The notes under the pieces: generated by a model
Seen by the model: only the letters and a program-made list of their open reading frames with translations
What the model was told of the DNA's origin: nothing
Databases searched by the model: none
Source of the DNA: Kiloniellales bacterium
Lineage (GTDB): Bacteria > Pseudomonadota > Alphaproteobacteria > Kiloniellales > JAKSDN01
Assembly (NCBI GenBank): GCA_028280455.1
Contig: JANQLT010000152.1
Coordinates: 1 to 64,000, forward strand
Direction of reading: 5' to 3'
DNA length: 64,000 nt
Made by a program: the position numbers and the translations under genes
Shown: positions 17,698 through 63,038 of the stretch, in pieces
Layout: every line of letters begins with the position of its first letter
Numbering within the stretch: position 1 is the first letter of the stretch

Positions 17698-19620
17698 ATG
17701 AGCGGCGGCGGGCGGGCCTGGCATGCCTCGATGTCCGTCGCCCTGGCGCTCGGCCTCGGTTTCTTCGTCCTGACCTCGGTCGCCACGGTGCTCAGCGTCG
17801 GCCTGGTCAGCGGCTACCGCAACACGGTCGAGCTGCTGCGCCAGAAGGCCGAGCTGCTGACCGCGGCGGAGCAGGACCGGGTGATCCGCTACCTCTCGGC
17901 AGCGGAAGACCAGCTCGCCTTCGCCAACCGGATGATCGCCACCGGCGAGGTCGACGCCGCGGGCGCCGGCGAGGACTTCACCAGCCTGCTGCTCGGCGCC
18001 CTGGCCGCGACCCCGCAGATCGTCGCCATCCTCTACATCGACGTGGACTACCAGCTCACCGGCGCCGAGCGGCGGGAGCAGGGCAGCGAGCCGATCTTCG
18101 CCTCGGTCCGGGGCGACGACGACCTGCGGGCGCTGGTCGACCAGGCGCGCCTCGCGGACGGCGGCCGCTGGGGCGGCCTGATCTGGCGGCAGAGCTTCGA
18201 CCAGGCGCTGATGACCTACAGCCTGCCGGTCGGCGGCGGCGAGAGCTTCTCAGGCGTCCTGGTGGCCCTGGTCTCGGTGGTCCAGCTCTCGGAGTTCATC
18301 TCCGACCTGGAGGGCGACTTCGGCGGCAATCCCTTCGTGCTCTACGGCGAGGACCGGGTGCTGGCCCATCCCCTGATGGCCTTCGGCTACGACGGCCTCA
18401 ACCGGCTCAGTCCCTTGCCCGAGCAGGCCCGCTTCGGCGACCCGGTGCTGGCCTCCATGTGGGAGGTCCGCGCGCTCGCCTTCTTCGAGGGCCACGTCCT
18501 GGAGGGCGAGGGCATCCACGCCGCCGCGGTCGGCACCAGCGACTACATCTTCATCTACAACACGGTCGAAGGCTACGCCGACCGTCCACTCTTGATAGGC
18601 AGCGCCTTCCCTTCGAGCGACATGCTGACCGAGGTGCTGCGCTTCAAGTGGGCCGCGCTGTTCTGCCTCCTGGTCTCGCTCGGCTCGGCCGCGGCGGCGG
18701 CGGTGATCGGCCGGCAGATCGCCCAGCCGGTGCGGCGCCTGGGCGAGGGCGCCACGCGGATCTACCACTTCGATCTGGCCCGGGTCACGCCGATGCCGGG
18801 CAACTTCTTCCGCGAGCTCGACGACACGGCGCGCTCCTTCAACACCATGCTCGAGGGCCTGCGCTGGTTCGAGCGCTACGTGCCGCGCAGCCTGGTGGCC
18901 CGGCTGATCAAGGCGCACCCGGACCCGGAGATCGGCTACACCTTCCGGGAAGTCGTCATCATGTTCATCGACATCATGGACTTCACCGGCCTGTCCGAGG
19001 ACATGACCGCGCCGCAGACCGCGGCCTTCCTCAACGAGCACCTGACCATGATCTCCGATGCCGTCGAGGCCGAGGGCGGCATCGTCGACAAGTTCACCGG
19101 CGACGGCGCCATGGCCGTCTGGGGCGCGCCGGAGACCTTTCCCGACATCGCCGACCGGGCCTGCCGGGCCGCCCTGGACATGAAGACGCTCTGGGAGGAG
19201 CGGGGCCGGGCGCCGACGGGGGCCGGGCGCCGCCCGGCGCGCCTCAGGATCGGCCTGCACCAGGGCCGGGTAGTGGTCGGCAACATCGGCAGCCCCGGCC
19301 GCATCGACTACACGGTGGTCGGCGACGCGGTGAACGTCTCCAAGCGCCTGGAGGCCATGAGCCGGACCCTGGGCAACGTCGACGGCCAGGTGAACATCCT
19401 GGTCTCCGGCGCCCTGCGCAGCGCGCTGTCCCAGCCCTTCGACCTGATCCACCTCGGCGCCCACCAGGTTCGCGGCCGGCGCGAGAAGGTCGAGGTCTAC
19501 CTGTTGAACGGCCCGGCCGACGAGACCGACGCCGAGGACGATCTGTCCGACGAGGAGCTATTTGGTGCCGATGGAGAGCAGCTCGAAGAACCGATTGGCC
19601 CAAACACTATTTCCAAATAA
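17698..19620 (+). CDS. membrane adenylate/guanylate cyclase with extracellular dCache-like sensor
   Basis: 640 residues from the ATG at 17698 (AGGGGAGG upstream). TM1 is at about residues 12-35 and TM2 at about 317-338; the ~280 residues between have the long-helix entry and alpha-beta pattern of a dCache-type sensor. HAMP runs from about 339 to 390. The class III cyclase domain begins at about 416 (VVIMFIDIMDFTG), with metal-binding D425 and D469 (KFTGDGAMAVWG), and ends with the GRIDYTVVGDAVNVSKRLE segment that positions the transition state. It should make cAMP (or cGMP) in response to an external ligand. The tail after RREKVEVYLLNGP is acidic (ETDAEDDLSDEEL) and then turns, from about 19561, into AT-rich codons (FGADGEQLEEPIGPNTISK). 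An equivalent acidic tail recurs at 22739-22825, so the true 3' end here may have been replaced by the island. Confidence 0.88.
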   Translation: MSGGGRAWHASMSVALALGLGFFVLTSVATVLSVGLVSGYRNTVELLRQKAELLTAAEQDRVIRYLSAAEDQLAFANRMIATGEVDAAGAGEDFTSLLLGALAATPQIVAILYIDVDYQLTGAERREQGSEPIFASVRGDDDLRALVDQARLADGGRWGGLIWRQSFDQALMTYSLPVGGGESFSGVLVALVSVVQLSEFISDLEGDFGGNPFVLYGEDRVLAHPLMAFGYDGLNRLSPLPEQARFGDPVLASMWEVRALAFFEGHVLEGEGIHAAAVGTSDYIFIYNTVEGYADRPLLIGSAFPSSDMLTEVLRFKWAALFCLLVSLGSAAAAAVIGRQIAQPVRRLGEGATRIYHFDLARVTPMPGNFFRELDDTARSFNTMLEGLRWFERYVPRSLVARLIKAHPDPEIGYTFREVVIMFIDIMDFTGLSEDMTAPQTAAFLNEHLTMISDAVEAEGGIVDKFTGDGAMAVWGAPETFPDIADRACRAALDMKTLWEERGRAPTGAGRRPARLRIGLHQGRVVVGNIGSPGRIDYTVVGDAVNVSKRLEAMSRTLGNVDGQVNILVSGALRSALSQPFDLIHLGAHQVRGRREKVEVYLLNGPADETDAEDDLSDEELFGADGEQLEEPIGPNTISK

Positions 19621-19743
19621 CTTTTCAAATACGCCGCCCCTGGATGGCTACCAAACATCACAAAAAGGGTGATCGGTACAAATTATCTGATCTTAGAATC
19701 TCGCACACAGACAATAAATCATCAAAGTGTATTTGGATACCGA

Positions 19744-20748
19744 TCACACGCCAAGATCACCTCGCAACAAATCAAGCGCTTTACGCGCATCTATACCAAG
19801 AGGTTCAGCGGCACCCTGCCAAAAATCGGAGAAATTGATTCCAGAGTCCACGACCGCACTCTGAACAGAAAAATTGGTAACATCCATACCGACTTGTTGA
19901 AGCTGAGCACTCTCTCCCTCTATATATGAATCAACATCTTGACTATACTTCAATGATGTATCTATAGCTGCAGAAGATAGTCCTTCCTGAGCCTCCTGAG
20001 ACGCTCGCTGCAGAAAATCCTCGGACCCCATGAGAATGACATGTCTAAAAAATAGGGGTGTTACTATCGCAGATTTGGCTGCCTCATAGAATTTCGACGA
20101 TCGGATAACGTCGAGAGGAATGGCAGCTGCATCGATTGCCCCGGTCTGTAGAGATTGGGCGAGTTCTGCAAAAGGCATTCTTTGCGGAACAGCGCCGAGT
20201 GTCTCAGATAGGTTTATTGCAGGTCCGACTGGGACACGAAATCTGAGCCCCTTGAGGTCAGAATGCTCTGCAACTTGTGCTGCAACCACCGCGTAGGGGC
20301 GCACCCCTAGGCCGAGAACTCGCAGTCCTTTAGCTTTGCTCCGGTCCTGAAGGAGCGCCAGAAACTGTCCTCCCTGATAGACTTTAGCCACATCGTCGCT
20401 ATTGTTAACGAGCGCGGGGAACTCCAGTACCGCCACCTCAGGTATGAATTTAACCAAGGTAGAAACCGACATTAGCCCCAATGAAGCTTGTTGTTTACTC
20501 AGAGCTGGAACAAGTTCATATGATGCGTATAGGGATTGCTCAGGGAATATCTTAAATTGTGCCTGCGAATCTACGTTAGTTAGGATCGCTTCTTCAAAGT
20601 TTAACATCCAGCGATGAGCCAACGAACCGGACGAGAAGTTATGCGCTACAAGAAAGGGTTGACACCATTCTCCAATAGCTAGTGCGGTTCCATTTCTCAT
20701 AGAGATGGCAGCAGCCAACATGCTCAGCACAGATCGTCTTCCCAGCAT
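19744..20748 (-). CDS. TRAP-type (DctP-like) periplasmic substrate-binding protein
   Basis: 334 residues from the ATG at 20748, which has a strong ribosome binding site (GGGGGGAGA) four to five bases upstream. The N-terminus MLGRRSVLSMLAAAISMR is a signal peptide with an RR pair, so export may be by Tat. The body fits the DctP family: LAHRWMLNFEEAILTN near the start, then LRVLGLGVRPYAVVAA, and the DLKGLRFRVPVG segment that contains the carboxylate-binding arginine. Such proteins deliver organic acids to DctQ/DctM membrane subunits, but none is present here. It follows the TPR-like gene by 70 bases on the same strand, and both lie in the AT-rich island. It may instead be a receptor for another system. 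Confidence 0.82.
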   Translation of the reverse strand: MLGRRSVLSMLAAAISMRNGTALAIGEWCQPFLVAHNFSSGSLAHRWMLNFEEAILTNVDSQAQFKIFPEQSLYASYELVPALSKQQASLGLMSVSTLVKFIPEVAVLEFPALVNNSDDVAKVYQGGQFLALLQDRSKAKGLRVLGLGVRPYAVVAAQVAEHSDLKGLRFRVPVGPAINLSETLGAVPQRMPFAELAQSLQTGAIDAAAIPLDVIRSSKFYEAAKSAIVTPLFFRHVILMGSEDFLQRASQEAQEGLSSAAIDTSLKYSQDVDSYIEGESAQLQQVGMDVTNFSVQSAVVDSGINFSDFWQGAAEPLGIDARKALDLLRGDLGV

Positions 20749-20818
20749 TCTCTCCCCCCAAACCCAACTCCAAGCAAGTTTTGCTTGATTCACATTCGCG
20801 CATACATCGGTGTTGCAT

Positions 20819-22498
20819 TTATGGTTTTGGCAAGTGACGGGCTTTCCAATCTACGTAACCGCTCCAACTTCTAAAGTCTGACAACAAATGAAGGCGCGAA
20901 ATACCTTCCAGGTAGGCAGGTTCCAGGGCGACGGCTGTTCCAAGAAGCTCTGCCGCCCTCGCGAAATCACCTGAGATCGCGGATCCAACGCCCAAGTTAT
21001 AGTAAACTCGGCGATAGGCCTCTTTGTGAGAAGTTGAGGCATCTGAGAGCTTGGAGGAAACCGTGTCAAGGAGTCGTTTAGCCTCGTCTTTACGGCTCAC
21101 AAGTCCAAGACAAAGCGCCTTCTGGGCTTGACGGTCCAGCAACGTTACAAGGCTATCGGTGGCTGCATTAATAGAGTCGTCCAGCAGATGAAGCGCCTTT
21201 TCGATCCTCTCGATTTCACCATTGTGCCAACGGCAAAGACCAAAGGCATAGGTGGCCAGCCACGCACCATCAGTATCGCTGTGCGGCAGCTTCTCGAACT
21301 CCTCCAAAAGTTGCTCTGCTTCTTCCCGATCTTTAGTACCAAGGAGCCGTGCTGATAGCTCCAGGTTCTTCACGTGGGGCTGGATTGCGATAGGTAGGTC
21401 TCTAATCTTGCCAATAGCCTCAACCGTCGCATCAAAATCAGCATAGACAAAAGACCGTCTAGCTTCTCGATACGCATCTGCGCTATCGATGAAGGTGGGA
21501 GTAACCGCAAAATCTGATAAGCCAGACGTCTGTTGGACCAACTCAGTCCATTCGTCAGTGCTCATTAGATGACTGATGTAGTCGCTCTCGTTCTTTGCAG
21601 AGCTAATATTCGATATTCCCTGCATGAACAACGTTCCGACAGTAGCGGCCGAGGCCCGTGGCAGGAGAATCTGCGCGTGCCGAAGTTGTGCGAGACCCAA
21701 CCCCAATTGCGCGAAGGCATTCTTAGGGTCTGATCCAAGGGCTTCCTTGAACAACGCCTCGATTCTGCCGATGCAGTCTTCGTCAGACTCTGTAGGCCCA
21801 CAGCGCGTGTCACCGCGCCCCTCCAAGAGATACTCGAATGCGTCCACCGTCGTCTCCAGGCTATCGAGACTGTCCGACAACTCGGAAAGACAGAGCTTCA
21901 CTGAGCAGGCCACAGTCCCGTCGAGCGGGTTTGCGAAAGCATCTATGAGGTACTTTGCAATCTTGGCGCGAAATATGGTTTCGGAAAGGCCGCCTGATTC
22001 CGGAATGGCTCGTCCGTGGGTATCGGTGGGGTAGATTCGCAGGAGTGCCTTTGTGTTCTTCTCTCCAGAGGTAGATGTATTTTCGGAGAAATCCCTAACT
22101 ACGACGTAGTAGTCAAAAAAACCAAACGGTTCATACAAGATCTGAAGCAGAATATCTGGTTCAAAATTACCGCTAAACGTTCCATATTTTGACTTTAGTT
22201 CAAAGCTTGCTGTCAGATCGACGATTTCGCCCAGCGTGATGGCCCTTTCCGGTCCGGCTCCAGGTACGGGATTTCTAATCTTCTTTCTATCTATGTCCAG
22301 CTGTAAGCGACTAGCCGATTTAGCAAATCTCTTGGACGCAGCAAGGGCATGGTCGATGTGGCGGATTATGACTTCGGAGTGAACTTCTAAAGATTTGTTG
22401 ATCTCTATATGAAGATCTTCTTTTGGCCTGCTGAAGTACCACGCAGAACCTACAAATAATATTCCAAGTCCTACCCAAAAAATTTTACTCAGGTTCAT
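20819..22498 (-). CDS. membrane-anchored TPR-like protein, possible partner of the TRAP binding protein
   Basis: 559 residues from the ATG at 22498; an ATG at 22546 would add 16 residues, and neither has a clear ribosome binding site. A single N-terminal helix (SKIFWVGLGILFVGSAWYF, residues ~4-22) anchors it, leaving the rest in the periplasm. Residues ~50-200 are an alpha/beta region I do not recognise. The C-terminal two thirds are helical with TPR-like pairs, the clearest being RRVYYNLGVGSAISGDFARA followed by AELLGTAVALEPAYLEG, and an earlier AQLGLGLAQLRHAQ. In Treponema a TPR protein (TatT) binds a TRAP solute-binding protein (TatP) in TPAT systems, and here the gene order is the same: TPR-like gene then binding protein. 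The shared function is an inference. Low-GC codons suggest transfer. Confidence 0.65.
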   Translation of the reverse strand: MNLSKIFWVGLGILFVGSAWYFSRPKEDLHIEINKSLEVHSEVIIRHIDHALAASKRFAKSASRLQLDIDRKKIRNPVPGAGPERAITLGEIVDLTASFELKSKYGTFSGNFEPDILLQILYEPFGFFDYYVVVRDFSENTSTSGEKNTKALLRIYPTDTHGRAIPESGGLSETIFRAKIAKYLIDAFANPLDGTVACSVKLCLSELSDSLDSLETTVDAFEYLLEGRGDTRCGPTESDEDCIGRIEALFKEALGSDPKNAFAQLGLGLAQLRHAQILLPRASAATVGTLFMQGISNISSAKNESDYISHLMSTDEWTELVQQTSGLSDFAVTPTFIDSADAYREARRSFVYADFDATVEAIGKIRDLPIAIQPHVKNLELSARLLGTKDREEAEQLLEEFEKLPHSDTDGAWLATYAFGLCRWHNGEIERIEKALHLLDDSINAATDSLVTLLDRQAQKALCLGLVSRKDEAKRLLDTVSSKLSDASTSHKEAYRRVYYNLGVGSAISGDFARAAELLGTAVALEPAYLEGISRLHLLSDFRSWSGYVDWKARHLPKP

Positions 22499-22561
22499 TG
22501 ATTGCTTGCCGCCACTTGAGTTTGATAGCCCGTTCAGAAGAATCATACCATTCTGTGTCAA

Positions 22562-22610
22562 CTGTCTTAGGTAGATATTATATCCGAAAATCTATTATAG
22601 ATTAAGACAG
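22562..22610. promoter_or_regulatory. inverted repeat in the island promoter region
   Basis: CTGTCTTA at 22562-22569 is the reverse complement of TAAGACAG at 22603-22610; the segment between is AT-rich and lies upstream of the two leftward island genes. It could be an operator, or the terminal repeat of a former mobile element. No similar pair was seen at the left edge. Confidence 0.35.
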
Positions 22611-22726
22611 ATTCTGCGCGAATCACAAAAGGAGGGGACTCAAGAGCAATTGCCGATCGAATCCATTGCCAATGCGCTTGAGCATTGTGCCAGTGGTTTC
22701 AACTCAACAACCAGATCCTGGCTACC

Positions 22727-22927
22727 ATAAATCTGGGCGGCCGCCGCGAGAAGGTCGAGATCTACCTGTTGAACGGCCCAGGCGACGCAGTAGTGGCCGA
22801 AGACGAGCTGTCGGACGAGGAGTTGGCGGCGCTCGAGACCGAAGACCATCCAGCAGAGGCCGGCGAGCCGGAGCCTGGCGATCCGGTGGAGGGCGAGGGG
22901 ACGCCGCTGGAACCGGAGCACGGCTGA
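22727..22927 (+). pseudogene. remnant 3' end of an adenylate cyclase
   Basis: The frame reads NLGGRREKVEIYLLNGPG and DELSDEELAALETED, matching the intact cyclase tail (RGRREKVEVYLLNGPA, DDLSDEEL), and then a longer acidic Pro/Glu-rich end (DHPAEAGEPEPGDPVEG...). No sensor, HAMP or catalytic region precedes it; the DNA before about 22735 is island sequence. It is therefore the tail of a second, paralogous cyclase (or a diverged copy of the first) left after the island replaced the rest. It ends 17 bases from the end of the convergent tetR-like gene. Confidence 0.7.
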
Positions 22928-25214: not shown

Positions 25215-26339
25215 TCACTGCCCGGCCGCGTTGGCCCGCCAGGCCTCGAAGAGCTCGAGCAGCTCCTGCTGGTCCGCCGACTCGGAGAGGCGTGCCGCCA
25301 CGTCCGGTGCCTGCTCTTCGAGGAAGCGCGCGAAGTCGGCCGCGCGGTCCTCGCTTTGGGCCGCCCCCTCGCTGTTGTTCGCCAGCCAGCGGGCGGCCGG
25401 CTCGAAGCGGTTCCAGCCGGGCACCTCGGCGGCGAGGCTGACCTCCTGCCATTTCCGGTGGCGCGGCGCCTGCAGGAAGGAGTCGAAGCTCGAGAAGAAG
25501 GCGTCGATGAAGCGGCTGACCTTGCGGTGGCGCTCGCCGCCCTCGGCCCAGTTGTAGACCGCCATGACGGCCCCCACGGCGACGGTGCGCACCGGCGCGC
25601 CGTCCGGCACCAGGCCGGGGTAGTCCGCGTTGGTCAGGCGGGAAGGGAAGTAGGTGTCGAGGATCTTCTCCTCCAGGGGGATCGGCAGGAAATGGACGCC
25701 CTGATCGCCGCCCAGGTCGCGGAACAGGCGCGTCGGCTTGCCGGCGACATAGATCAGCCCGTCGATCTCGCCCTTGACCAGCGACTCCAGCGCCAGGGCC
25801 TGGTCGAAGGAGACCGGCTCGGGCTCGATGCCCAGTAGCTCGAAGACCAGGGAGGCGGTCATGTAGGTGCCGCTGCCCTGGACGCCGAAGTTGACCTTCT
25901 TGCCCGCGAGGTCCGCGACCTGCGTGATTTCCTTGCGGGCCAGCAGGTGGAACTCCTCGTTGTAGAGCTTGGTGATGTAGTTGATCCGACTGTCGATCTG
26001 GGGGTGCTTGCCCTGGCGGCGGACGAACTCGAAGACGTCGGACTGGACGATGCCGATGTCGATGCCCTTGAGGTAGAGGATGTCGTCGATGTTCTGGACC
26101 GAGCCCTTGCCCATCACCGGCAGGACGCGCAGGTCGTCGCCGTTGTCGAGCACGGCGGCCAGGTCGGTGGCGATCCGGATATAGGTGCCGTCGACGCCGC
26201 CGGAGATGATCCCGACGGTCCCGCTGTTGATTCGCTCCCGGAACTCGCCGGCCGATTGGGCGCGCAGACCGTCGGCCGCGGCGAAAAGGACCAATGCGCC
26301 GGCGAGCACGGCGCTGGTAAGTCTCGACATCTTGATCAT
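25215..26339 (-). CDS. TAXI-family TRAP transporter substrate-binding protein
   Basis: 374 residues with a signal peptide (MIKMSRLTSAVLAGALVLFA..., cleaving near LRAQ). The TAXI motifs are VGIISGGVDGTYIRIATDLA near the N-terminus, the signature segment LAGKKVNFGVQGSGTYMTA, then GLIYVAGKPTRLF. It binds a solute in the periplasm for a fused DctQM-type membrane protein, which is not in the window. Its neighbour on the upstream side (26411-29842) is transcribed the same way, 71 bases apart. Together with the DctP-like protein at 19744 it makes two orphan TRAP-type receptors in 7 kb. The ATG at 26339 follows AAGGGAACGGGG. Confidence 0.88.
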   Translation of the reverse strand: MIKMSRLTSAVLAGALVLFAAADGLRAQSAGEFRERINSGTVGIISGGVDGTYIRIATDLAAVLDNGDDLRVLPVMGKGSVQNIDDILYLKGIDIGIVQSDVFEFVRRQGKHPQIDSRINYITKLYNEEFHLLARKEITQVADLAGKKVNFGVQGSGTYMTASLVFELLGIEPEPVSFDQALALESLVKGEIDGLIYVAGKPTRLFRDLGGDQGVHFLPIPLEEKILDTYFPSRLTNADYPGLVPDGAPVRTVAVGAVMAVYNWAEGGERHRKVSRFIDAFFSSFDSFLQAPRHRKWQEVSLAAEVPGWNRFEPAARWLANNSEGAAQSEDRAADFARFLEEQAPDVAARLSESADQQELLELFEAWRANAAGQ

Positions 26340-26410
26340 CCCCGTTCCCTTGATCGACTGTTCTTGTCTTGGCTCGTTGGTCTCCAGTGGCGGTCTCTAG
26401 CTCCTGAGTC

Positions 26411-29400
26411 TCACTGGCCGGCGCCCGGCAGGCGGTCGAGCAGGGCGCGGGCCTCGCCGTCGCCGGCCTCCAGCGCGCGGCGATACCAGGCCGCCGCCTT
26501 CTCGGCATCGCCGCGCAGGCCGACGACGCCCAGCGCCGAGAGCACGTTGGGGTCGTAGGTCCGGCCCATGGCCGTCGCCGCGCGCGGGTTCTGCTGTTCC
26601 AGGGCGAGCTCGAAATAGAGCCGCGCCGTGGCCATGTCGCCCCGGGCAAAGTTGTCCTCGCCGCGGCTGATCAGGTCGTCGCCGGCCAGCTCGAGCCGCG
26701 GCGGCTCCGGGGCGGCGGCCGGCGCCGCTTGCGACGGCTCCGCTGCCGCGCTCGGCGGCTCGACGGCCGTCCTGGTGGCGATCTCCACGACCGTCGGCGT
26801 CACGGCGGCTGCCGTCGTCTCGGCTTCTTGCGGCTCCCGCGCCGCCGGTGCCGCAGGGGCCGCCGGTTCGGCACGGGCCAGCTTGAGGGCGGCGTCGAGG
26901 CGCTCGATCTCCTGCCGGGCCGCGGCGACGGCCTTCTCGCGATTGGCCGCCTCGGCGCTGGCCGCGGCCAGCTCATCGGCCAGCGTCTGTCGTTCGAACT
27001 CCGAGGCGGCCAGCTCTTTGCGCAACCTCTCGACCTCGGCGCCCGCCTGATCGGACTCGGCCCGCGCCTGGTCCAAGGCGGTGGAGAGGCGCTCGCTCTC
27101 CTGCTGCGCCGAGGCTAGGGGCTCGCGAAGCGCCGCGGCTTCGGCGAGAGCCGCCTCGCGCCCGGCCTCGGCCTCGGCCAGGGAGGCCGAAAGCCGCTCG
27201 ACCTCCTGGCGCGCGGCGGCAGCGCTGTCGCCGCTGCCTGCCGCCTCGGCGCGGACGGCTTCCAGCTCTTCGATCAGTCGCTCGATCTCCTGTCCCGAGG
27301 CCGCCGCGGCCTCGCGCGACGCCGCGAGCGCGTCGAGGGCCTGGTCGCGGCCGGCCTCGGCCTCGCCGAGGGCAGCCGAGAGGCGTTCGATCTCCTCTGT
27401 CGCCGCGCGCGCCGCCTCGCTGGCGCTGCCGGCTTCGCCGCGCGCCGCCTCGAGCTGCGCGGTCAGCGACTGGGACTCCTGCTGCGCCGCAGCCAGGCCG
27501 GCCTTCGCCTCGGCAAGCTGCGACAGGGCCGCGTCGCGTTCGGCGACTGCAGTCTCGGTCTCCTGCCGCGCGGCGGCCGTGGCCTCGGACGCGCCGCTGG
27601 CCTCGCCGCGCGCCGCCTCGAGCTGCGCGGTCAGCGACTGGGACTCCTCCTGCGCCGTAGCCAGGCCGGCGTTCGCCTCAGCGAGCTGCGACCGGGCTGC
27701 GTCGCGCTCGGCCTCTGCGCTCTCGAGGGCGGCCGAGACGGTCTCGATCTCTTGCCTCGCGGCGGCGGTGGCCTCCGACGCGCTGGCGGCTTCGTCGCGC
27801 AAGGCCTCGACCTGCGCCGCAAGCGCCGCTTTCTCGTCCTCGGAGGCGGCCAGGGCGTCGCTCGACTGGGCCAGATCGGCGATCGCCGCATCCCGCGCGG
27901 CGACCGCCTCCCGCAGCGCCGCGTTGAGGCGCTCGCTTTCCTCGGAGGCGCTCGTGGCCGTCTCGCCGGCGCTGCTCGCCTCGGCGCGCAGGGACTCCAG
28001 CTCCTCCTTCAGGGCGCCGTTCTCCTGCGCCGACGCCGCCATGGCGGCCAGCAGCTCGTCCAGCTCGGCAAGGGCCGCGTCGCGGGCCGCCGAGGCCGAT
28101 CGCAGATCGGCGGTCAACTGCGCCGAGTCCGTGCTCCCCGCGGCGGCGGCTTCCTTGACGCTGGCCAATTCCTCGCGGGTGGCCGCGGCGGCGTCGGACA
28201 GTGCCTGCTTTTCCGTCTCGGCGGCCGCCAGGGCCTGGCGCAGCTCGGTGACCGCGGTCATGGAGGTGACAGCGGCGTCCCGCTCGGCCTCGGTCGCACG
28301 CAGGGCGACGCTCAGGCGCTCGAGCTCGTCGCGTTGCGTGGCCTCGGCGGCGCGCGCGTCCGCCGCGTCGATCTCCGAGGCGACCAGGGCCTCGCGGAGA
28401 GACTCGGCCTCGGCCTTGGCGGCATCCCGTTGGATCTCGGCGCCTTGCAGGGCGTCGGAGAGCCGGTCGATCTCCCGTCCGGCCGAGGCCAGCGATGCGG
28501 CCGTCGCCTCCGGCTCCTTGCGCCCTGTATCGGTCACGGCCGCCGAGCTCTGCTCGGCGTTCACCGGGGTCGCGCGCGTGGCGGGCGGTTCCGTTGCCTC
28601 CTGTTGCCCGTTCGCCGCCGGCTCGACCGCGCTGGCCGCCTCGCGCGTGCTCTGCTCCGCCTTGAGGAAGAGATGGCCGCCGGCGCCGACGACCAGAAGG
28701 ATCAGGACGGCGGCCACGGCGATCCAACGGCCGCGCCGGCGGGCGGCGAAGAGGCGCTTCGGCGGCGCGAGGTAGCGGGGGGCGTCGGGGCCCGCCGCGT
28801 TGCCGTTGGCCATGGCGGCGGCGGCCATCGCGGCCGCGGGCTCACCCGGCGCCTCGCCGAAGGGGGCCTCCGGGATGTCGTCGTCGAAGGCCTCGGGGAT
28901 CGTCTTGGGAATCGCCTCCTCGCGAGGCTGCTCGCGCTGCGGCTCGGCCGCCGCCGCCGGCCGCGGCAGGGGCTTGGCTGCCGGCGCCGGGGGCGCCTGC
29001 GCCGCAGTGGGTGCGGCCGGCTCGCCATCGCCGAGGTCCGCCACGGACTTCTCGCGGACGGCGTCGACCACGGCCTCGGTGACCCTGTCGACCTCCTCCA
29101 GCCAGATGTGGATCAGGCAGAAGTCGCAGAGCCGCTCCAGGGGGCCCGGCAGACCGCCGGTGCAGTCCGCCATGCGCTTGATGGCGTCTTCGGTGAAGAG
29201 CTTCTCCGCGCGGTACTGGGTGCCGCTCAGGATCTGATCGATGAAGGGAGCGATCTCGTCGAGCGTCAAAGGCTTCAGGTGAAGCGCCATCGCGGCCGAG
29301 GGCCTGGCGGAGAGCGCCGCCAGTTGCGGCAGCCAGGGCTCGAGGTCCGGGCTGCCGGCCACGACCAGGGTCTGCGGGCCGATCCGCTTCGCCTCGCCGC

Positions 29401-29842
29401 TCAGCAGGGTCTGGAAGCGCTCGATGGCCTCCCGATGCTCGGGCGCCGCCTGGTCGAGGAAGAACAGGAGCTGGCGCCCCGAGGCGGCCTGCCGCTCGGC
29501 CTGGGCGACGAAGGCACGCTCCGGCCCGATGCGCTCCAGCTCCGCCGGGGCGGTGCCGATCTTGGCGCAAGCTTCGGCCAGGAGGGCGTCGTAGTCCCCG
29601 GGCGTCGCCGCGACCATCGCCGTCCGGTAGCGCCGCTTGCCGAGATCGGCGCGGATCTCGCGCAAGACCGAGGTCTTGCCGGTTCCGGGATCGCCGAGCA
29701 GCAAGGCGACGCCGCCACCGCCTTTTATCAGGCCGCAGATCTCCGACTGGGCTTCGTCAAATGCCTTGTGCGAAACGCAATCTCGATCCGTCCGGCCGGC
29801 AAGATAGGGGTTGCCGAATAGATCCGGTATCGGCTCCGTCAT
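26411..29842 (-). CDS. ExeA-like AAA ATPase fused to a giant coiled coil and Sel1-type repeats
   Basis: 1143 residues. Residues 1-280 form an ExeA/GspA-type AAA ATPase: Walker A GDPGTGKTS at 50-58, Walker B ending LLFFLD at 125-130. An Ala/Pro-rich linker leads to one membrane helix at about 370-392 (WIAVAAVLILLVVGAGGHLF). Then comes ~570 residues of continuous coiled coil, rich in Ala, Glu and Arg, with a 56-residue unit duplicated (offset 168 bp; for example LTAQLEAARGEA in two copies). The C-terminus has Sel1-like repeats (ARLYFELALEQQNPRAATAMG, AAAWYRRALEAGDGEA). The architecture suggests a cytoplasmic motor spanning to a long periplasmic arm with peptidoglycan- or protein-binding ends, as in ExeA/GspA, which assembles secretion pores. 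The ATG at 29842 follows GGTGGGAG. The task is unknown. Confidence 0.82.
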   Translation of the reverse strand: MTEPIPDLFGNPYLAGRTDRDCVSHKAFDEAQSEICGLIKGGGGVALLLGDPGTGKTSVLREIRADLGKRRYRTAMVAATPGDYDALLAEACAKIGTAPAELERIGPERAFVAQAERQAASGRQLLFFLDQAAPEHREAIERFQTLLSGEAKRIGPQTLVVAGSPDLEPWLPQLAALSARPSAAMALHLKPLTLDEIAPFIDQILSGTQYRAEKLFTEDAIKRMADCTGGLPGPLERLCDFCLIHIWLEEVDRVTEAVVDAVREKSVADLGDGEPAAPTAAQAPPAPAAKPLPRPAAAAEPQREQPREEAIPKTIPEAFDDDIPEAPFGEAPGEPAAAMAAAAMANGNAAGPDAPRYLAPPKRLFAARRRGRWIAVAAVLILLVVGAGGHLFLKAEQSTREAASAVEPAANGQQEATEPPATRATPVNAEQSSAAVTDTGRKEPEATAASLASAGREIDRLSDALQGAEIQRDAAKAEAESLREALVASEIDAADARAAEATQRDELERLSVALRATEAERDAAVTSMTAVTELRQALAAAETEKQALSDAAAATREELASVKEAAAAGSTDSAQLTADLRSASAARDAALAELDELLAAMAASAQENGALKEELESLRAEASSAGETATSASEESERLNAALREAVAARDAAIADLAQSSDALAASEDEKAALAAQVEALRDEAASASEATAAARQEIETVSAALESAEAERDAARSQLAEANAGLATAQEESQSLTAQLEAARGEASGASEATAAARQETETAVAERDAALSQLAEAKAGLAAAQQESQSLTAQLEAARGEAGSASEAARAATEEIERLSAALGEAEAGRDQALDALAASREAAAASGQEIERLIEELEAVRAEAAGSGDSAAAARQEVERLSASLAEAEAGREAALAEAAALREPLASAQQESERLSTALDQARAESDQAGAEVERLRKELAASEFERQTLADELAAASAEAANREKAVAAARQEIERLDAALKLARAEPAAPAAPAAREPQEAETTAAAVTPTVVEIATRTAVEPPSAAAEPSQAAPAAAPEPPRLELAGDDLISRGEDNFARGDMATARLYFELALEQQNPRAATAMGRTYDPNVLSALGVVGLRGDAEKAAAWYRRALEAGDGEARALLDRLPGAGQ

Positions 29843-56740: not shown

Positions 56741-56900
56741 TTTGTATTTACCATAATATACATTATGCGAATAACGTAGCTGGGTGTTTCGAGATGGAAG
56801 TTTGGCGTCAGATACCTTTCCCCCGCCGGGCAGCTATCCACAGAATGACGCCCGCCCCGGCGAGCCAGTGCAGCAAGCCCGTCCTGTCCCGCACGCGATC

Positions 56901-57087
56901 ATCATCGGCGACTCAGCGAACCGGACCGCCCCCCTTGAAAGCCTGTTGGCGGTGTTGGCGCGGCTGCTCGATCCGGAGGGCCGCTGCTCCTGCGTATCGA
57001 GCAGAGCTACGGGACCGTATCGCCCCCTACGCCATCGAGGAGGCCTACGAAGTCGCCGACGACATCGAGCCGGCGGGATTGCGCGAC
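56901..57087 (+). pseudogene. broken 5' copy of mazG
   Basis: The sequence follows the first 60 codons of intact mazG (58049 on). In frame it reads DSANRTAPLESLLAVLARLL, against DAPNRSDSLERLLAVMARLR, and later IAPYAIEEAYEVADDIE, against IAPYTIEEAYEVADAIE. The start codon aligned with the mazG ATG is ATC, there is a one-base deletion after GCTCCTGCG and a two-base insertion before TATCGCC, so no protein can be made. It ends where the PEP-CTERM-like gene begins (57110), and the intact mazG lies beyond that gene. Confidence 0.82.
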
Positions 57088-57109
57088 AGGCCCGCACCCA
57101 AGGGGCCCG

Positions 57110-57838
57110 CTAGGCCACGCCCTCGTGTTGCCTGCGCCTCCCGATGAGCCAGACGGCAAGCAGCCCGGCGCCGAAAAGCGGGAATGTCGCCGGCGATGGC
57201 ACGGCCACGGCGCTTGAGAGTGAGAAGTCCAATGTCGGGGGATCGAAAGAGCTTACGGGAATGAACCAGCCGGCGAGGCCGCCGGGCTGTGTGATGTCGT
57301 TCGAGAACCTCATGTTGCCGGGGTTCGAGATGGGACTGGAGATGCCCCAGGTCCATTCCGTCGCCGTTAGCGCCGTCGCCTCGTTGAACAGCGAGATCCA
57401 AAGCGTATCGCCGGCTGTGATGCCGACCGGCGTTGACAGGTCCAAGCTGTAGGCAAAGGGAGCGAACCCGTTCCCCGACGCCGTGCGTGTCACTGTCTGG
57501 GTTTCGCTGGCAAGCGGCGTTGTCGACGGCAGTCCGCCGTTGTCGGTGAAGATCCTGACGGTGAAGACATCGCTGCCGACCGCGGGGGCTGCCCCGGCGA
57601 TGTAGTTGCCGGTCCATGACACGCCGCCCAGAGTCGAAACACCGACGGGAACGACAAAGTCATCGGCGATCAACTGGTTGTTGAACCCCGCAAAAGCGAT
57701 GCCGACGACCGGAAAGGCGCCGCCGATATTGTCGTAGAAGGGCACGGCATTTGCCGTCGCGCCTGCCAGAGAAATGCCCGCTGCGGCCAAGAGGGCCAGG
57801 CTCAGGTTCGCCAAGCGTCGCAAGGTAACGTCCCCCAT
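57110..57838 (-). CDS. PEP-CTERM-like sorting-signal protein
   Basis: 242 residues. N-terminal signal peptide (LANLSLALLAAAGISLAGA) and a C-terminal VPSPATFPLFGAGLLAVWLIGRRR, i.e. a V-P-x-P-like motif, hydrophobic helix and Arg cluster, the tripartite PEP-CTERM signal that exosortase-type systems cut. The beta-rich body (SWTGNYIAG, WTWGISSPIS, and FIPVSSFDPPTLDFSLS at the end) is predicted secreted; its function is unknown. No exosortase gene is in the window. It sits exactly between the broken and the intact mazG. ATG at 57838; an alternative TTG lies one codon upstream. Confidence 0.8.
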   Translation of the reverse strand: MGDVTLRRLANLSLALLAAAGISLAGATANAVPFYDNIGGAFPVVGIAFAGFNNQLIADDFVVPVGVSTLGGVSWTGNYIAGAAPAVGSDVFTVRIFTDNGGLPSTTPLASETQTVTRTASGNGFAPFAYSLDLSTPVGITAGDTLWISLFNEATALTATEWTWGISSPISNPGNMRFSNDITQPGGLAGWFIPVSSFDPPTLDFSLSSAVAVPSPATFPLFGAGLLAVWLIGRRRQHEGVA

Positions 57839-57880
57839 CAAGTGCTACGGCGAGTCCGCGAGGCCGGCGCCGCAAAAAAA

Positions 57881-57904
57881 GGCCGAATTGCGGTTCATTC
57901 GGCC
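57881..57904 (-). terminator. intrinsic terminator, or attenuator upstream of the PEP-CTERM-like gene
   Basis: GGCCGAAT at 57881-57888 pairs with ATTCGGCC at 57897-57904, and seven A's at 57874-57880 give a run of T's on the minus strand. It is therefore a leftward intrinsic terminator. It lies 40 bases upstream of the leftward PEP-CTERM-like gene, and no leftward gene lies to its right, so it is either a leader attenuator or a relic of the cargo's earlier context. Confidence 0.72.
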
Positions 57905-58048
57905 CTATCCTTCGAATTATACAGACATCCTAGCACATACTGGCCAAAGTGCCGATAAAGCGCCCGTGAAGGCCCCTTCCCGGCTATCCACAGGCGCGCT
58001 CGTGGCCCGGCTTGCCAGCCTCCCGTGCCGGCCTATTCTGCCGGCACC

Positions 58049-58876
58049 ATGACCGACGACGCCCCGAACAGATCCGACTCCCTCGAACGCCTCTTGGCGG
58101 TGATGGCACGGCTGCGCGATCGTGACGGCGGCTGCCCCTGGGACATCGAGCAGAGCTACGAGACCATCGCCCCCTACACCATCGAGGAGGCCTACGAGGT
58201 GGCCGACGCCATCGAGCGGCGGGACTTCGAGGGCCTCAAGGAGGAGCTGGGCGACCTGCTGCTGCAGGTGGTCTATCACGCGCGCATGGCCGAGGAGGAA
58301 CGGCGCTTCGACTTCGAGGCCGTGGCCGCCGCCATCGCCGACAAGATGATCCGCCGGCATCCCCACGTCTTCGGCGACGAGAGCGTCGAGACCGCCGCGG
58401 CGCAGACCCTGGCCTGGGAAGACCAGAAGGCCGCCGAGCGCGCCGCCAAGGCCGGCGGCGGCAACGGCGCCGAGCCGGCCTCGGTGCTCGACGGCGTGCC
58501 CCTCGCCCTGCCCGCCCTGACCCGCGCCGAGAAGCTGCAGAAACGCGCCGCTCGGATCCGCTTCGACTGGCCCCAGGCGCTGAGAGTCTTCGAGAAGATC
58601 GAGGAAGAGCTCGCTGAGATCAAAGAAGAAATGGCCGGCAAGGAGCGGCCGGTGAAGCTCGAGGAGGAGGTCGGCGACCTGCTCTTCACCGTGGCCAACC
58701 TGGCCCGCCACCTGGGCGTCGACCCGGAGACCGCCCTGCGCGGCTGCAACGCCAAGTTCGAGCGGCGCTTCCGCTGGATCGAGCGTGACTACGCGGCGCG
58801 CGACGAGAACCCGGCCGAGGCGCCGCTTGACGAGCTCGAAGAGGCCTGGCAGCGGGCCAAGCGGGCGGAGAGCTGA
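58049..58876 (+). CDS. mazG: nucleoside triphosphate pyrophosphohydrolase
   Basis: 275 residues with two MazG domains. The first has CPWDIEQSYETIAPYTIEEA and EELGDLLLQVVYHA, the second KLEEEVGDLLFTVANLARHLG with the FEKIEEELAEIKEEM helix upstream. The acidic residues bind magnesium and cut NTPs to NMP and pyrophosphate, lowering alarmone or damaged nucleotide levels. I used the ATG at 58049; a GTG at 58025 is possible. There is a partial, broken copy at 56901-57087, so the gene has been duplicated across the PEP-CTERM-like gene. The stop is followed by a 6-bp microsatellite. Confidence 0.94.
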   Translation: MTDDAPNRSDSLERLLAVMARLRDRDGGCPWDIEQSYETIAPYTIEEAYEVADAIERRDFEGLKEELGDLLLQVVYHARMAEEERRFDFEAVAAAIADKMIRRHPHVFGDESVETAAAQTLAWEDQKAAERAAKAGGGNGAEPASVLDGVPLALPALTRAEKLQKRAARIRFDWPQALRVFEKIEEELAEIKEEMAGKERPVKLEEEVGDLLFTVANLARHLGVDPETALRGCNAKFERRFRWIERDYAARDENPAEAPLDELEEAWQRAKRAES

Positions 58877-58880
58877 GGGG

Positions 58881-58910
58881 AAACAGAAACAGAAACAGAA
58901 ACAGAAACAA
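58881..58910. repeat. AAACAG microsatellite
   Basis: Five 6-bp units (AAACAG four times, then AAACAA) follow just after the mazG stop. Such a tract can expand or shrink by slippage, but it lies outside any coding region, so an effect on expression is uncertain. Confidence 0.85.
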
Positions 58911-58923
58911 GAACGAAGATTCT

Positions 58924-59050
58924 ACACGGATGGACACGGATCAAGCACGGATGAACACGGATAACCAAAACAAGAAAACCAACTCTTTTGTTTCTTGGTA
59001 TTTGTTATCCGTGTTCATCCGTGAGACATCCGTGTTCATCCGTGCAAGCT
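58924..59050. repeat. ACACGGATG-type palindromic element, copy A
   Basis: The left side has ACACGGATGGACACGGAT followed by GCACGGATGAACACGGATAAC. The right side is nearly complementary, with GTTATCCGTGTTCATCCGTG and a second ATCCGTG unit, ending GCAAGCTTGTC. It lies between convergent mazG and gst. Compare 60582-60738, 62642-62769 and 62901-63028. Confidence 0.85.
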
Positions 59051-59062
59051 TGTCTTCGTTCC

Positions 59063-59692
59063 TCACCCGAAGTGCTGGTCCCAGACGGGCGCGATGGCCG
59101 GGCGCGAGCGGACCTGCTCGCAGAGGCGGCCGATGGCGGGGTGTCGGGCGCAGACCTCGGCGGGGGCCGGGTGCCATTGGATCAGCATGGCCAGGTAGGG
59201 GTCGAGGGCGCTGAAGGACTCGCCCATCAGGAAGGGGCCGCCGGACTCGCCGAGCCGGTCCTCGAGGATCGTCAGGCCGCGGTCCATGGCGGCCAGGCCG
59301 GCGCGCTTGACGGCCTCGGCGCCGGCCGGGTCGTCGGTGAAGCGCTCCGGGTAGTAGACGTGGAGATCGGCGCTGTAGACGTCGACCGCCATGTAGAGCA
59401 GCCAGCGGTCGAAGACCGCGCGCGCCGGGCTGCCGGGCGCGGGCGCCAGGCCGGCCGCCGGATGGGCGTCGACCAGGTGCAGGACCATGGCCGCGGACTC
59501 GGTCATGACCGTGCCGTCCGGCAGGGCCAGCGCCGGGACCTGGCCGCGCGGGTTGACCGCCAGATAGGCCGCCTGGTGCTGCTCGCCCTTGGAGGTGTCG
59601 ATCGGCACGGTCTCGTAGGCGATGCCGGCCTCCTCGAAGATCGCCTGGGGCGCGAAGGCCCCGGTGTCCCGGCACCAATAGAGCTTGTACAT
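59063..59692 (-). CDS. glutathione S-transferase family protein
   Basis: 209 residues. The thioredoxin-like N-terminus (YWCRDTGAFAPQAIFEEAGI, then NPRGQVPALALPDG and ESAAMVLHLVDAHP) gives the glutathione site with the conserved cis-Pro in QVPAL and the ESAA loop. The C-terminal domain is all-helical. It conjugates or reduces with glutathione in the cytosol; the substrate is unknown. ATG at 59692 after GAGGAGGGC. Flanked by the two repeat elements A and B. Confidence 0.88.
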   Translation of the reverse strand: MYKLYWCRDTGAFAPQAIFEEAGIAYETVPIDTSKGEQHQAAYLAVNPRGQVPALALPDGTVMTESAAMVLHLVDAHPAAGLAPAPGSPARAVFDRWLLYMAVDVYSADLHVYYPERFTDDPAGAEAVKRAGLAAMDRGLTILEDRLGESGGPFLMGESFSALDPYLAMLIQWHPAPAEVCARHPAIGRLCEQVRSRPAIAPVWDQHFG

Positions 59693-59803
59693 GGCCTGCC
59701 CTCCTCACCGCGCGTCGCGTCAGGCGCGCAGACTGACGCCACGCCACCCCGCGCCGCAAGCCCCGGATAGATCGCGCGTGCCGGGCATAGCATCATTGCT
59801 GCC

Positions 59804-60544
59804 ATGCCCCTGTCGGACCCGCAGATCGACGAGACCCCGCGTATCGCCGCCCGCCTCGAGGCCATCGATTGGCGCGCCGTCGAGCAGGCCATCGAGACGG
59901 AGGGGCATGCGCGCATTCCGGGCTTGCTGGGCGCCGAGGACTGCCGGGCGCTGGCGGCGCTCTACGACCGGGAGGCGCGCTTCCGCAGCACCGTCGTCAT
60001 GACCCGGCACGGTTTCGGCTCGGGCGAATACCGCTACTTCGACCGGCCCCTGCCCCGCCTGGTCACTGACTTGCGCCGCGGCCTCTACAAGCGCCTGGCG
60101 CCGCTGGCCGCGCGCTGGCGCGAGCCGCTCGGGTTGGCGCACGAGATCCCGCCCGGCCTCGAGGCCTTCCTGAAGATCTGCGCCGACGCGGGTCAGGGCA
60201 AGCCGACGCCGCTGCTGCTGCGCTACGGGCCCGGCGACTACAACTGCCTGCACCAGGACGTCTACGGTGCCGTCGCCTTTCCGCTGCAGGTGGCCATCGG
60301 GCTGTCGCGTCCCGGGGCGGACTTCGAAGGCGGCGAGTTCCTGCTGGTCGAGCAGCGGCCGCGCATGCAGTCCCGCGGCGAGGCCATCGCCCTACGACAG
60401 GGCGAGGCGCTGATCTTCCCGAACCAGGCGCGGCCGGTCCAAGGCAAGCGCGGCACCTACCGGGTCAAGGTCCGCCACGGCGTCAGCCGGGTGCGCTCGG
60501 GGCGCCGCTTCACGCTCGGTGTGATCTTCCACGATGCGGCGTGA
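59804..60544 (+). CDS. 2OG-Fe(II) oxygenase, prolyl-hydroxylase-like
   Basis: 246 residues. The double-stranded beta-helix shows the first two metal ligands in CLHQDVYGAV and the distal His in KVRHGVSRV, with the arginine in SGRRFTLGVIFHDA that binds 2-oxoglutarate. This is the group of bacterial 2OG oxygenases related to prolyl 4-hydroxylase. It probably hydroxylates a protein or small molecule; no partner is apparent. The start ATG at 59804 lies 111 bases from the divergent GST start. Confidence 0.85.
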   Translation: MPLSDPQIDETPRIAARLEAIDWRAVEQAIETEGHARIPGLLGAEDCRALAALYDREARFRSTVVMTRHGFGSGEYRYFDRPLPRLVTDLRRGLYKRLAPLAARWREPLGLAHEIPPGLEAFLKICADAGQGKPTPLLLRYGPGDYNCLHQDVYGAVAFPLQVAIGLSRPGADFEGGEFLLVEQRPRMQSRGEAIALRQGEALIFPNQARPVQGKRGTYRVKVRHGVSRVRSGRRFTLGVIFHDAA

Positions 60545-60581
60545 GTCCGCGCAGGAGGCGCTCGGTCATTGCCGACTCAAC

Positions 60582-60738
60582 GGAGAACAAGAAGCTTGCA
60601 CGGATGGACACGGATTGAGCACGGATGAACACGGATAGCAGATACCCAAAAAAAACCATCTAAGTGGCTTTGTTACATTGGTTATCCGTGTTCATCCGTG
60701 GGACATCCGTGTCCATCCGTGCAAGCTTCTTGTTCTCC
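60582..60738. repeat. ACACGGATG-type palindromic element, copy B (34-bp perfect arms)
   Basis: The left arm 60582-60615 (starting GGAGAACAAGAAGCTTGCAC) is the exact reverse complement of the right arm 60705-60738. Inside, CACGGATGAACACGGATA also pairs with TATCCGTGTTCATCCGTG. The whole 157 bp can fold into one long hairpin with an AAAAACCATCTAAGTGGCTTT-like tip. No ORF. It resembles a miniature inverted-repeat element. The 2OG oxygenase gene ends 37 bases before it. Confidence 0.9.
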
Positions 60739-60762
60739 ATTAGACCAGGCGGCCTAAAGACG

Positions 60763-60792
60763 AGACCCCGGCCGCCGAAACGACCGGGGTCT
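60763..60792 (-). terminator. terminator downstream of the phosphodiesterase gene
   Basis: AGACCCCGG at 60763-60771 pairs with CCGGGGTCT at 60784-60792, and the stem can extend with one interruption (AGACG/CGTCT). On the minus strand it follows the GDPD stop by about 35 bases and is followed by CGTCTTT. A probable end for that transcript. Confidence 0.55.
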
Positions 60793-60828
60793 TTCGTCTC
60801 ACAGCCAGCCTAGGCCGGCGAGCGGTGC

Positions 60829-62190
60829 TCAATCGTCGTCGTCGTCATCGCCCCGGTGGCGCTTCTTCTTCGCCCCGTGGTGCTGGCCGACGCGGACCTT
60901 CTTGCAGTTGGCATAGAAGGTCGTGGTCGAGGGCCAGTCGGAGAACAGGCCGATGATGCCGACCTTCTGCGCCAGCACGTCGACGGTGCGCATGATGTCG
61001 CCGTCGTTGTGCAGGGAGTCGAGCGTGGTCTGGTAGTAGAAGGCGCTTTCGGGCACGCCGTCGATGATCCGGCCGGAGCGCTCCAGGGTCCAGGTGATGA
61101 TGTCGAGCTTGGCCCGCTTGGCGCGCTTGGCGTAGGTCGAGGGCACGATGTTCTCGCCGCTCGACTTGAGCAGGACGGGCATCGGCGGCGCGATGATGTT
61201 CAGGCCGGCCTTCTTGAGGGCGCGGAACTCCGAGAGCGGCGGCGGGTTGTCGGCCTGGACCTGCACCGGGCGGCCGTCGAGGAAGACCGCCTGCTTGCCG
61301 TAGCGCGGGTACTCCTCGATCCAGAGCATGACGTCGTCGAGGTTGAAGGACTGCGCCCAGACCCAGCGCGGGTCGATGCCGGCGTCGATGTATTCCTCGA
61401 TCATCGCCCGGGCGTAGTTCTCCTGGCTGCCGAAGACATCGGCGATGTCGTCCGGGTCGCCGCCCTTGAGCTCCGGCGTGTAGCCGGTGCCGAGCTCGTC
61501 GAACAGCTCGATGCTCTCGGCGTGGGTCAGCAAGGTGCCCTTGTTGGTGTAGAGGTCGGTGCGCCAGCGCGCCGTGCCGCCGAGGTAGCCTTCGACGGTC
61601 GTGGCGTTGCGGTCGGCGGCGTCCATCTTGCCGTTGAGGGTCTTGAACTGGGCGAGGGTCAGGTCGCTGGTGCAGCAGCGGATCTGCGGGCCGTTGGTCA
61701 GCGCGCCGGAGACCGGATCGAACTCGGGCGGCACCTTGCAGTGCTGCCGCAGGTCGGGCCGGGCGACGATGTCGGTCGTGGTGTGCAGGTCGCACTGGGC
61801 ATGGCGGCAAACCAGCTCGGCATCCTTGGTGAAGGTGACGTCGCACTCCAGGATGCCCGCGCCGCTGCGGGCGGCCGCGACATAGGACTCCTTGGTGTGC
61901 TCGGGGAACTGCAGCGGCGCGCCGCGGTGCCCGATCGAGAACAGCTTCGGCGTGAACTGCTCCTTGTTCTCCGCGCAGTGCTGCAGCTCCCGCTTGAGCT
62001 TGCCGGGCTTCAGCGCGTCGACCAGGTACCAGGGCCGCGGGCCGAGCTGCACGTTGACCGGCGAGCCCTTGCCGTAGCCGCGCCCCCCGTCGTCGTCGTC
62101 ATCGTCGTCCGCGGCCAACGGCCCGGAGACCGCCAGGGCCGCGACCATCGCGGTCAAGGCGATGGCCTTTCTCACGTCAGCGATTCGCAT
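60829..62190 (-). CDS. secreted glycerophosphodiester phosphodiesterase family protein
   Basis: 453 residues. The signal peptide (MRIADVRKAIALTAMVAALA, ending in SGPLA) is followed by an Asp run (ADDDDDDDGG) that is mirrored by another Asp run at the C-terminus (RHRGDDDDDD). The GDPD motifs are FSIGHRGAPLQFPEHTKES, GILECDVTFTKD and LVCRHAQCDLHTTT, which bind the metals. It hydrolyses glycerophosphodiesters to glycerol phosphate and an alcohol in the periplasm or outside. The acidic ends are unusual and may bind calcium. The gene is leftward with a terminator at 60763. Confidence 0.88.
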   Translation of the reverse strand: MRIADVRKAIALTAMVAALAVSGPLAADDDDDDDGGRGYGKGSPVNVQLGPRPWYLVDALKPGKLKRELQHCAENKEQFTPKLFSIGHRGAPLQFPEHTKESYVAAARSGAGILECDVTFTKDAELVCRHAQCDLHTTTDIVARPDLRQHCKVPPEFDPVSGALTNGPQIRCCTSDLTLAQFKTLNGKMDAADRNATTVEGYLGGTARWRTDLYTNKGTLLTHAESIELFDELGTGYTPELKGGDPDDIADVFGSQENYARAMIEEYIDAGIDPRWVWAQSFNLDDVMLWIEEYPRYGKQAVFLDGRPVQVQADNPPPLSEFRALKKAGLNIIAPPMPVLLKSSGENIVPSTYAKRAKRAKLDIITWTLERSGRIIDGVPESAFYYQTTLDSLHNDGDIMRTVDVLAQKVGIIGLFSDWPSTTTFYANCKKVRVGQHHGAKKKRHRGDDDDDD

Positions 62191-62210
62191 GTTTCTCTCC
62201 CCGAAGTGCG

Positions 62211-62573
62211 AGATTCACTTGGAAGAGAGCTCTTAGAGTCTTCGTAAGGGCTTTTGCTTTGCGCCGACTTGAAGATTGGATGACGTCAAGACAGCAAGCG
62301 CCTGTGCAATACAGGTGTTACAGCGAGCGCTCTTACTTGATGAAGCTTTCGTGCCGTTGACGCGCCTCCCCTGGACAAGTCGCCTCACCCGGCCGGCCGC
62401 TCTTCGAGCGCGCGCAGCTCGTGCCGACTACGAGCACGCGCCGCAGGTCGGCGTCTGGTTCGGCCGCCATGGCCCCGGCCTGGTCGTTGTGTCTCTTCCA
62501 CAGCGCCCGCCATCGAGAACGCAACGACGCGATCCAGTCTTCACTTTTCTCACCGGCGACACTGCATCGCCGC
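62211..62573. other. intergenic region without a supported gene
   Basis: About 360 bases upstream of the phosphodiesterase gene start. It has open frames on both strands but no recognisable product. It contains the gdpd promoter region at its left end and runs into the first direct-repeat unit at 62574. Confidence 0.4.
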
Positions 62574-62779
62574 GCCGGCTCGCGATGACAACGCGTGGCA
62601 CGCGCCGGCCAGCGAGAAGGCGAATGGAGAACGATAGATTTACACGGATGGACGCGGATGTCCCACGGATGAACACGGATAACAGAAACCTGAAAACCAC
62701 CTAAGTGGTTTTGTTTCATTGGTTATCCGTGTTCATCCGTGAGACATCCGTGTCCATCCGTGCAAGCTTCTGGTTTGCC
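62574..62779. repeat. 206-bp direct repeat, unit 1 (contains hairpin element copy C)
   Basis: The unit begins GCCGGCTCGCGATGACAACG and ends at GGTTTGCC. The same sequence returns exactly 259 bp later (62833-63038) without indels and with only a few base changes. Within it, 62642-62769 is copy C of the ACACGGATG-type element, with a tip hairpin CCACCTAAGTGG. The outer parts (GGCACGCGCCGGCC and GAGAAGGCGAATGGAGAACG) are not shared with copies A and B. Confidence 0.9.
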
Positions 62780-62832
62780 TCTGAACCGCTCAGATCCAAG
62801 GGAGGACTCGCTGGATCGCCGTGCCGGCCGAC

Positions 62833-63038
62833 GCCGGCTCGCGATGACAACGCGTGGCACGCGCCGGCCAGCGAGAAGGCGAATGGAGAACGATAAATTT
62901 ACACGGATGGACGCGGATGTCTCACGGATGAACACGGATAACAGAAACCTGAAGACCACCTAAGTGGTTTTGTTTCATTGGTTATCCGTGTTCATCCGTG
63001 TGCTATCCGTGTCCATCCGTGCAAGCTTCTGGTTTGCC
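62833..63038. repeat. 206-bp direct repeat, unit 2 (contains hairpin element copy D)
   Basis: Same as unit 1, shifted by 259 bp. The element proper is 62901-63028. A difference is ATCCGTGTGCTATCCGTG instead of ATCCGTGAGACATCCGTG on the right. The spacer between the two units (62780-62832) is unrelated to anything here. No gene is seen in 62191-63093. Confidence 0.9.

Follow-up and report, generated by a model that had tools for sequence, protein, structure and literature searches.

An AT-rich island between two diverged copies of a cyclase gene end in a Kiloniellales bacterium, consistent with recapping of a single gene

Introduction

In a 64,000-nucleotide stretch of a Kiloniellales bacterium genome (contig JANQLT010000152.1 of assembly GCA_028280455.1, positions 1 to 64,000; the window), an intact cyclase gene runs into AT-rich DNA, on the far side of which lies a second, diverged copy of the same gene end. 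How did this DNA come to lie between two cyclase ends, and which of the two is the older? The kind of event proposed here, insertion with replacement of a gene end, is already known; the points of interest are the small size, the absent integrase and the recurrence. An insertion that recaps its target keeps the gene alive, which makes the fixation of foreign DNA cheap. Should small integrase-free cassettes do this repeatedly, gene 3′ ends would be general docking sites beyond the known phages and integrative elements, and AT-rich blocks between diverged in-frame gene tails would offer a direct search target in genomes; the integrase-free, recurrent form merits a systematic scan.

The features of the locus, as we read them, are:

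17698-19620, + strand: membrane receptor cyclase, 640 codons, with dCache-like, HAMP and class III cyclase domains
19472-19557, + strand: left repeat copy, the 3′ end of the intact cyclase (residues 592-620), 84% identical to the right copy
19558-22736, no strand: AT-rich foreign island, 3179 bp (maximum-likelihood block 19559-22734)
19744-20793, − strand: orphan DctP-type TRAP solute-binding protein, 349 aa (PF03480, E=4.2e-37; GC3 0.43)
20819-22501, − strand: membrane-anchored TPR-like protein, 560 aa (weak TPR matches; GC3 0.53)
22737-22822, + strand: right repeat copy, the beginning of the displaced old cyclase 3′ end (GC3 0.86, native-like)
22823-22927, + strand: rest of the old cyclase 3′ end, open in frame, GC 0.735, with the original stop TGA at 22925-22927

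Two diverged gene ends bracket an AT-rich block

The two copies form an ungapped 86-bp direct repeat, 83.7% identical with 14 mismatches, and no other pair of such length and identity exists in the region or in the whole genome. A first-pass annotation of this DNA had aligned the tails over 87 bases without indels at about four-fifths identity, and 71 of these 87 positions do match, with no gaps. Fitting a maximum-likelihood two-level GC model to composition alone placed the AT-rich block at 19559-22734 (3-lnL ranges 19519-19609 for the left edge and 22709-22776 for the right), with a GC content of 0.488 as compared to ~0.68 outside. The block edges thus fall within 3 bp of the inner repeat ends and, since the fit was made without the alignment, this coincidence is independent of it. 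The 3.18-kb block agrees with the annotated ~3.2 kb of AT-richer DNA whose left edge lies in the last cyclase codons and whose right edge lies just before the remnant.

As a test of chance, we made 2,500 random placements across the same genome. Four showed a repeat of at least 60 bp at 78% identity or more, one of the four being the second (mttB) island described below, and none of the 2,500 had repeat ends at the edges of the placement, which excludes chance. The island itself is present once in its own genome. Together, these data support the view that the 3.2-kb AT-rich block between the repeats is a foreign insertion.

The present cyclase end and the old one

The cyclase carries catalytic-type motifs and matches PF00211 at residues 416-605 (Pfam, E=8e-22), where the catalytic domain ends, and its frame stays open through the left repeat to a stop inside the island. 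Third-position GC (GC3) is 0.97 in the cyclase body and 0.96 in the left repeat, as compared to 0.40 in the last 20 codons: composition is native up to about codon 620, and the last 20 codons and the stop are island-like. The gene therefore now ends in island DNA, and its former end is found on the other side, where the right repeat has a GC3 of 0.86 and the old tail one of 0.79. When the flanks are joined at the repeat (17698-19471 with 22737-22927), the result is an uninterrupted cyclase reading frame of 654 codons ending at the stop at 22925-22927. Because the repeat spans residues 592-620 and the cyclase domain ends at 605, the exchange would have concerned mainly a noncatalytic acidic tail. 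The right-hand tail could instead have been a normal small gene, but no convincing start was found for it; the sole in-frame start is a TTG at 22685, within island DNA.

A cargo of two genes

Both leftward genes of the earlier annotation, dctP and the TPR-like gene, are present, and they leave only 123 and 235 bp of noncoding DNA at the island ends. No integrase or transposase was found in the 3.18-kb island, as had been noted before, and neither would fit, since no coding room is left for it. The DctP protein scores above the cut-off of the TRAP_S1 profile, its best DctP matches being 23-29% identical. The TPR-like protein has an N-terminal hydrophobic helix and, in a predicted structure of low confidence (pLDDT 47), a helical-hairpin C-terminal half; the fold matches of this model included none that was meaningful. 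The TPR-like gene is likely the first gene of an operon with dctP, and the gene order invites the guess that DctP might capture its ligand while docked on the membrane-anchored TPR-like partner. In cargo only, the island resembles TPAT (TatT-TatP) TRAP systems (PMC5812351), where a TPR-type gene likewise adjoins a DctP-type gene. Unlike those systems, the island contains no TatQM permease, nor any other TRAP permease gene, and its 560-aa TPR-like protein has no sequence match to TatT in a PDB search; with the permease missing, we do not assign it to the TPAT family. A second TRAP binding protein, of the TAXI type, is encoded near the island within positions 25215-29842 of the window, where its gene neighbours one whose 1143-aa product begins in an ATPase-like manner and includes a long stretch resembling a coiled coil.

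A second case at mttB

Interior AT-rich islands of at least 700 bp were sought in 2.07 Mb (35%) of this genome. Edge repeats longer than 60 bp were found at two of the 22 islands so defined: the cyclase island and one on contig C152, at the 3′ end of an mttB gene (PF06253, E=1e-194):

C152 4252-4324 and 5671-5743: 73-bp repeat pair, 89% identical, with the same orientation logic as in the cyclase case
C152 4327-5668: second cassette, AT-rich, 1.35 kb (C152 4252-5743 with its repeats; locus L115)

The two pairs also have the strongest AT-rich interiors, a contig-end artefact apart, among all direct-repeat pairs of 35-400 bp spaced 0.4-15 kb in the scanned DNA. The second cassette encodes a RES-domain protein (PF08808, E=4e-19) and a 117-aa protein of no assigned family; the RES partner is Xre/MbcA/ParS-like, below that family's cut-off, and from these sequence matches the pair is predicted to be a RES/Xre toxin-antitoxin cassette. 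It supplies the last codons and the stop of mttB, and beyond it lies the displaced old mttB 3′ end, which now contains an in-frame TAG. Neither island contains an integrase, relaxase or phage gene or has room for one, and the two share no terminal sequence. The remaining 20 islands lack such edge repeats, and foreign DNA therefore has other routes into this genome too. Thus the mttB case lends some support to the earlier suggestion that foreign DNA is generally fixed in this way, while 20 of the 22 AT-rich islands sampled do not fit it.

Proposed recapping of one gene, and its rivals

On balance we lean towards a single insertion into one cyclase 3′ end, in which a cassette with its own diverged tail recombined and recapped the gene. 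An incoming AT-rich cassette would have carried the TPR-like gene, dctP and its own version of the cyclase 3′ end; recombination inside the shared 86 bp would have joined the recipient cyclase body to the incoming tail, which would run on into the island and so provide a new stop codon; and the recipient's old tail would have been left on the far side, the cyclase being recapped rather than broken. This explanation is favoured by the repeat, by the match between its inner ends and the composition edges, by a reading frame that is open on either side, by the single-gene empty site obtained by joining and by the second locus; against it, neither an empty site nor a donor was found in the collections searched, and no circular form was seen. 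Since both tails are GC-rich and the island is AT-rich, the carried tail would have to come from a GC-rich host.

That the left tail probably arrived with the island is suggested by a case whose history is known. Prophage e14 of E. coli K-12 substituted its own version for the final 165 bp of icd and left the displaced tail as icdC (PMC11148124); icd and icdC differ at 12 of the 165 bp, 11 of them third positions. The cyclase locus shares with it an insertion at the 3′ end of a protein gene, an element-borne, diverged, in-frame end, an old end beyond the element, and tail differences mainly at third codon positions. By contrast, e14 is 15 kb long, encodes an integrase and an excisionase and has tails 93% identical, whereas the islands described here are 3.2 and 1.35 kb, carry no mobility genes and have tails 84% and 89% identical. 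The cyclase island thus has end repeats of which one completes the target 3′ end in frame, as e14-type elements do, but no integrase gene, and therefore we do not class it as an intact integrative element. By analogy with e14, an integrase that was later lost, or that acted in trans, may have made the joint; repeat identities of 84-89%, with longest exact runs of 19 and 17 bp, are low for attL/attR and speak against this. A RecA-dependent single crossover with a circle is a close second, and needs no integrase in the cassette. Elsewhere, the genome encodes six tyrosine recombinases. A 38.9-kb AT-rich block (C34 23709-62572, GC 0.55), which has one tyrosine recombinase at the left edge and another inside, is likely an integrative element and a possible source of recombinase in trans.

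Two other known systems bear comparison. A CIME is a decayed integrative element that has kept attL and attR (PMC5704250); like one, the island is foreign DNA at the 3′ end of a gene, flanked by direct repeats and devoid of integration and transfer genes, its repeats being only putative recombinase sites. Unlike a CIME, it has no identified intact parent element or functional att site, and its repeats exceed the usual 8-60 bp sites of tyrosine recombinases in both length and divergence. In Rhs C-terminal displacement, for which recombination with circular intermediates has been proposed (PMC2935791), a GC-rich core likewise acquires a new AT-rich end and the old end is left downstream; here, by contrast, the target is an enzyme, only its noncatalytic tail changed, and the cargo is unrelated to the target gene.

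The differences between copies fall at third codon positions in 8 of 14 cases at the cyclase and 6 of 8 at mttB, together 14 of 22 (binomial test against an expectation of one third, P=0.0035; with so few sites the P values are guides only). This bias indicates that both tails diverged as coding sequence, in keeping with the annotated view of them as diverged homologues, and the pattern is compatible with paralogues as well. It counts against a target-site duplication followed by drift, as would arise if a staggered break had been filled in around captured foreign DNA: such an 86-bp duplication would need no mobility genes, would explain the one-gene empty site and would suit the mttB remnant, which is drifting and has its in-frame TAG, but a dead copy should drift without preference for third positions, and the packing of 7 of the 14 cyclase mismatches into 9 bp (P=0.001) does not sit well with this rival either. 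We also found no Ku gene in the genome, which counts against end-joining capture and led us to reject the Ku-dependent form. Such a fill-in is, in our judgement, improbable. The cyclase mismatches are moreover distributed 3 to 11 between the 5′ and 3′ halves of the repeat (Fisher P=0.038), as expected if the crossover core lay at its 5′ end, as in e14. The longest exact runs between copies are 19 and 15 bp at the cyclase and 17 and 15 bp at mttB. A 19-bp exact match is too short for usual assembly k-mers, which makes a chimera of two strains, one with the island and one without, a poor explanation, even in a draft of 241 contigs with an estimated contamination of 4.9%; the same structure at two loci and the frames kept across the junctions also argue against it, and we give an assembly artefact very little credence.

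The first-pass annotation had preferred two tandem paralogous cyclases, the island having taken the place of the first gene's end, of the spacer and of almost the whole second gene. Such paralogues would account for the 16% tail divergence and its coding-like character. Yet the 654-codon join gives one full cyclase, so that no tandem second gene is needed; breaks would have to fall at nearly the same codons in two genes, a coincidence repeated at mttB; the tail occurs nowhere else in this genome and has no match around the related cyclases examined; and upstream of the right repeat there is no cyclase match, only island DNA. We therefore abandon this history, which would be needed twice, as having little chance of being correct. 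A stronger contender, which we still hold to be unlikely, is homology-facilitated illegitimate recombination (HFIR), in which linear DNA from a congener with the island already downstream of its cyclase paired within the cyclase, the illegitimate joint of its non-homologous end falling just upstream of where the anchor ends, so that the 86 bp were duplicated as a donor and a recipient copy. Such joints are known in transformable bacteria and occur at low frequency during conjugation in E. coli (PMC3240628); they have also been invoked for displaced gene ends at Vibrio T6SS loci (PMC5361080). HFIR requires no recombinase, and so accounts for the absent integrase, as well as for the diverged GC-rich tails and the third-position differences. 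It does, however, require a donor in which the cassette was already fused to a cyclase end, which shifts the question to the donor without answering it, and its joints are very rare, yet two loci here have similar repeats (73 and 86 bp) of the same polarity. Beyond recapping at this one gene, a wider proposal, that small integrase-free cassettes with host-gene 3′ fragments spread among related bacteria and recap genes recurrently in this lineage, toxin-antitoxin pairs included, seems to us distinctly doubtful.

Relatives and other repeats

Among 38 relatives, examined for an empty site, the nearest cyclases were ~53% identical or less, the best match being partial, and a close scan of GTDB r220 gave no close relative. 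Close relatives of the island genes were absent from the order, class and phylum samples and from GTDB r220: DctP had none in GTDB r220 or among the 385 genomes of the class and 398 of the phylum, only distant relatives on plasmids and none on viral contigs, and the TPR-like protein had none in 61 order and 385 class genomes. The cyclase tail was not found in phages or plasmids. A conserved cyclase-TRAP cassette was rejected, since the related cyclases examined have neither a DctP nor a TPR gene nearby.

Two further repeat pairs were considered and set aside. A third candidate (L167; C78 5339-6021) consists of tandem intergenic repeats of at least 113 bp, 94% identical and rich in CACGGAT-like motifs. 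At L199 (C100 3769-3823 and 6999-7053), near-identical 55-bp palindromes bracket a lower-GC permease/LysR/HAD block; this is another kind of thing, and its repeats look like a palindromic mobile or regulatory element. Within the window, 56900-58224 and 58910-63034 contain several diverged direct repeats of 140-180 bp, 80-85% identical, with no AT-rich interior.
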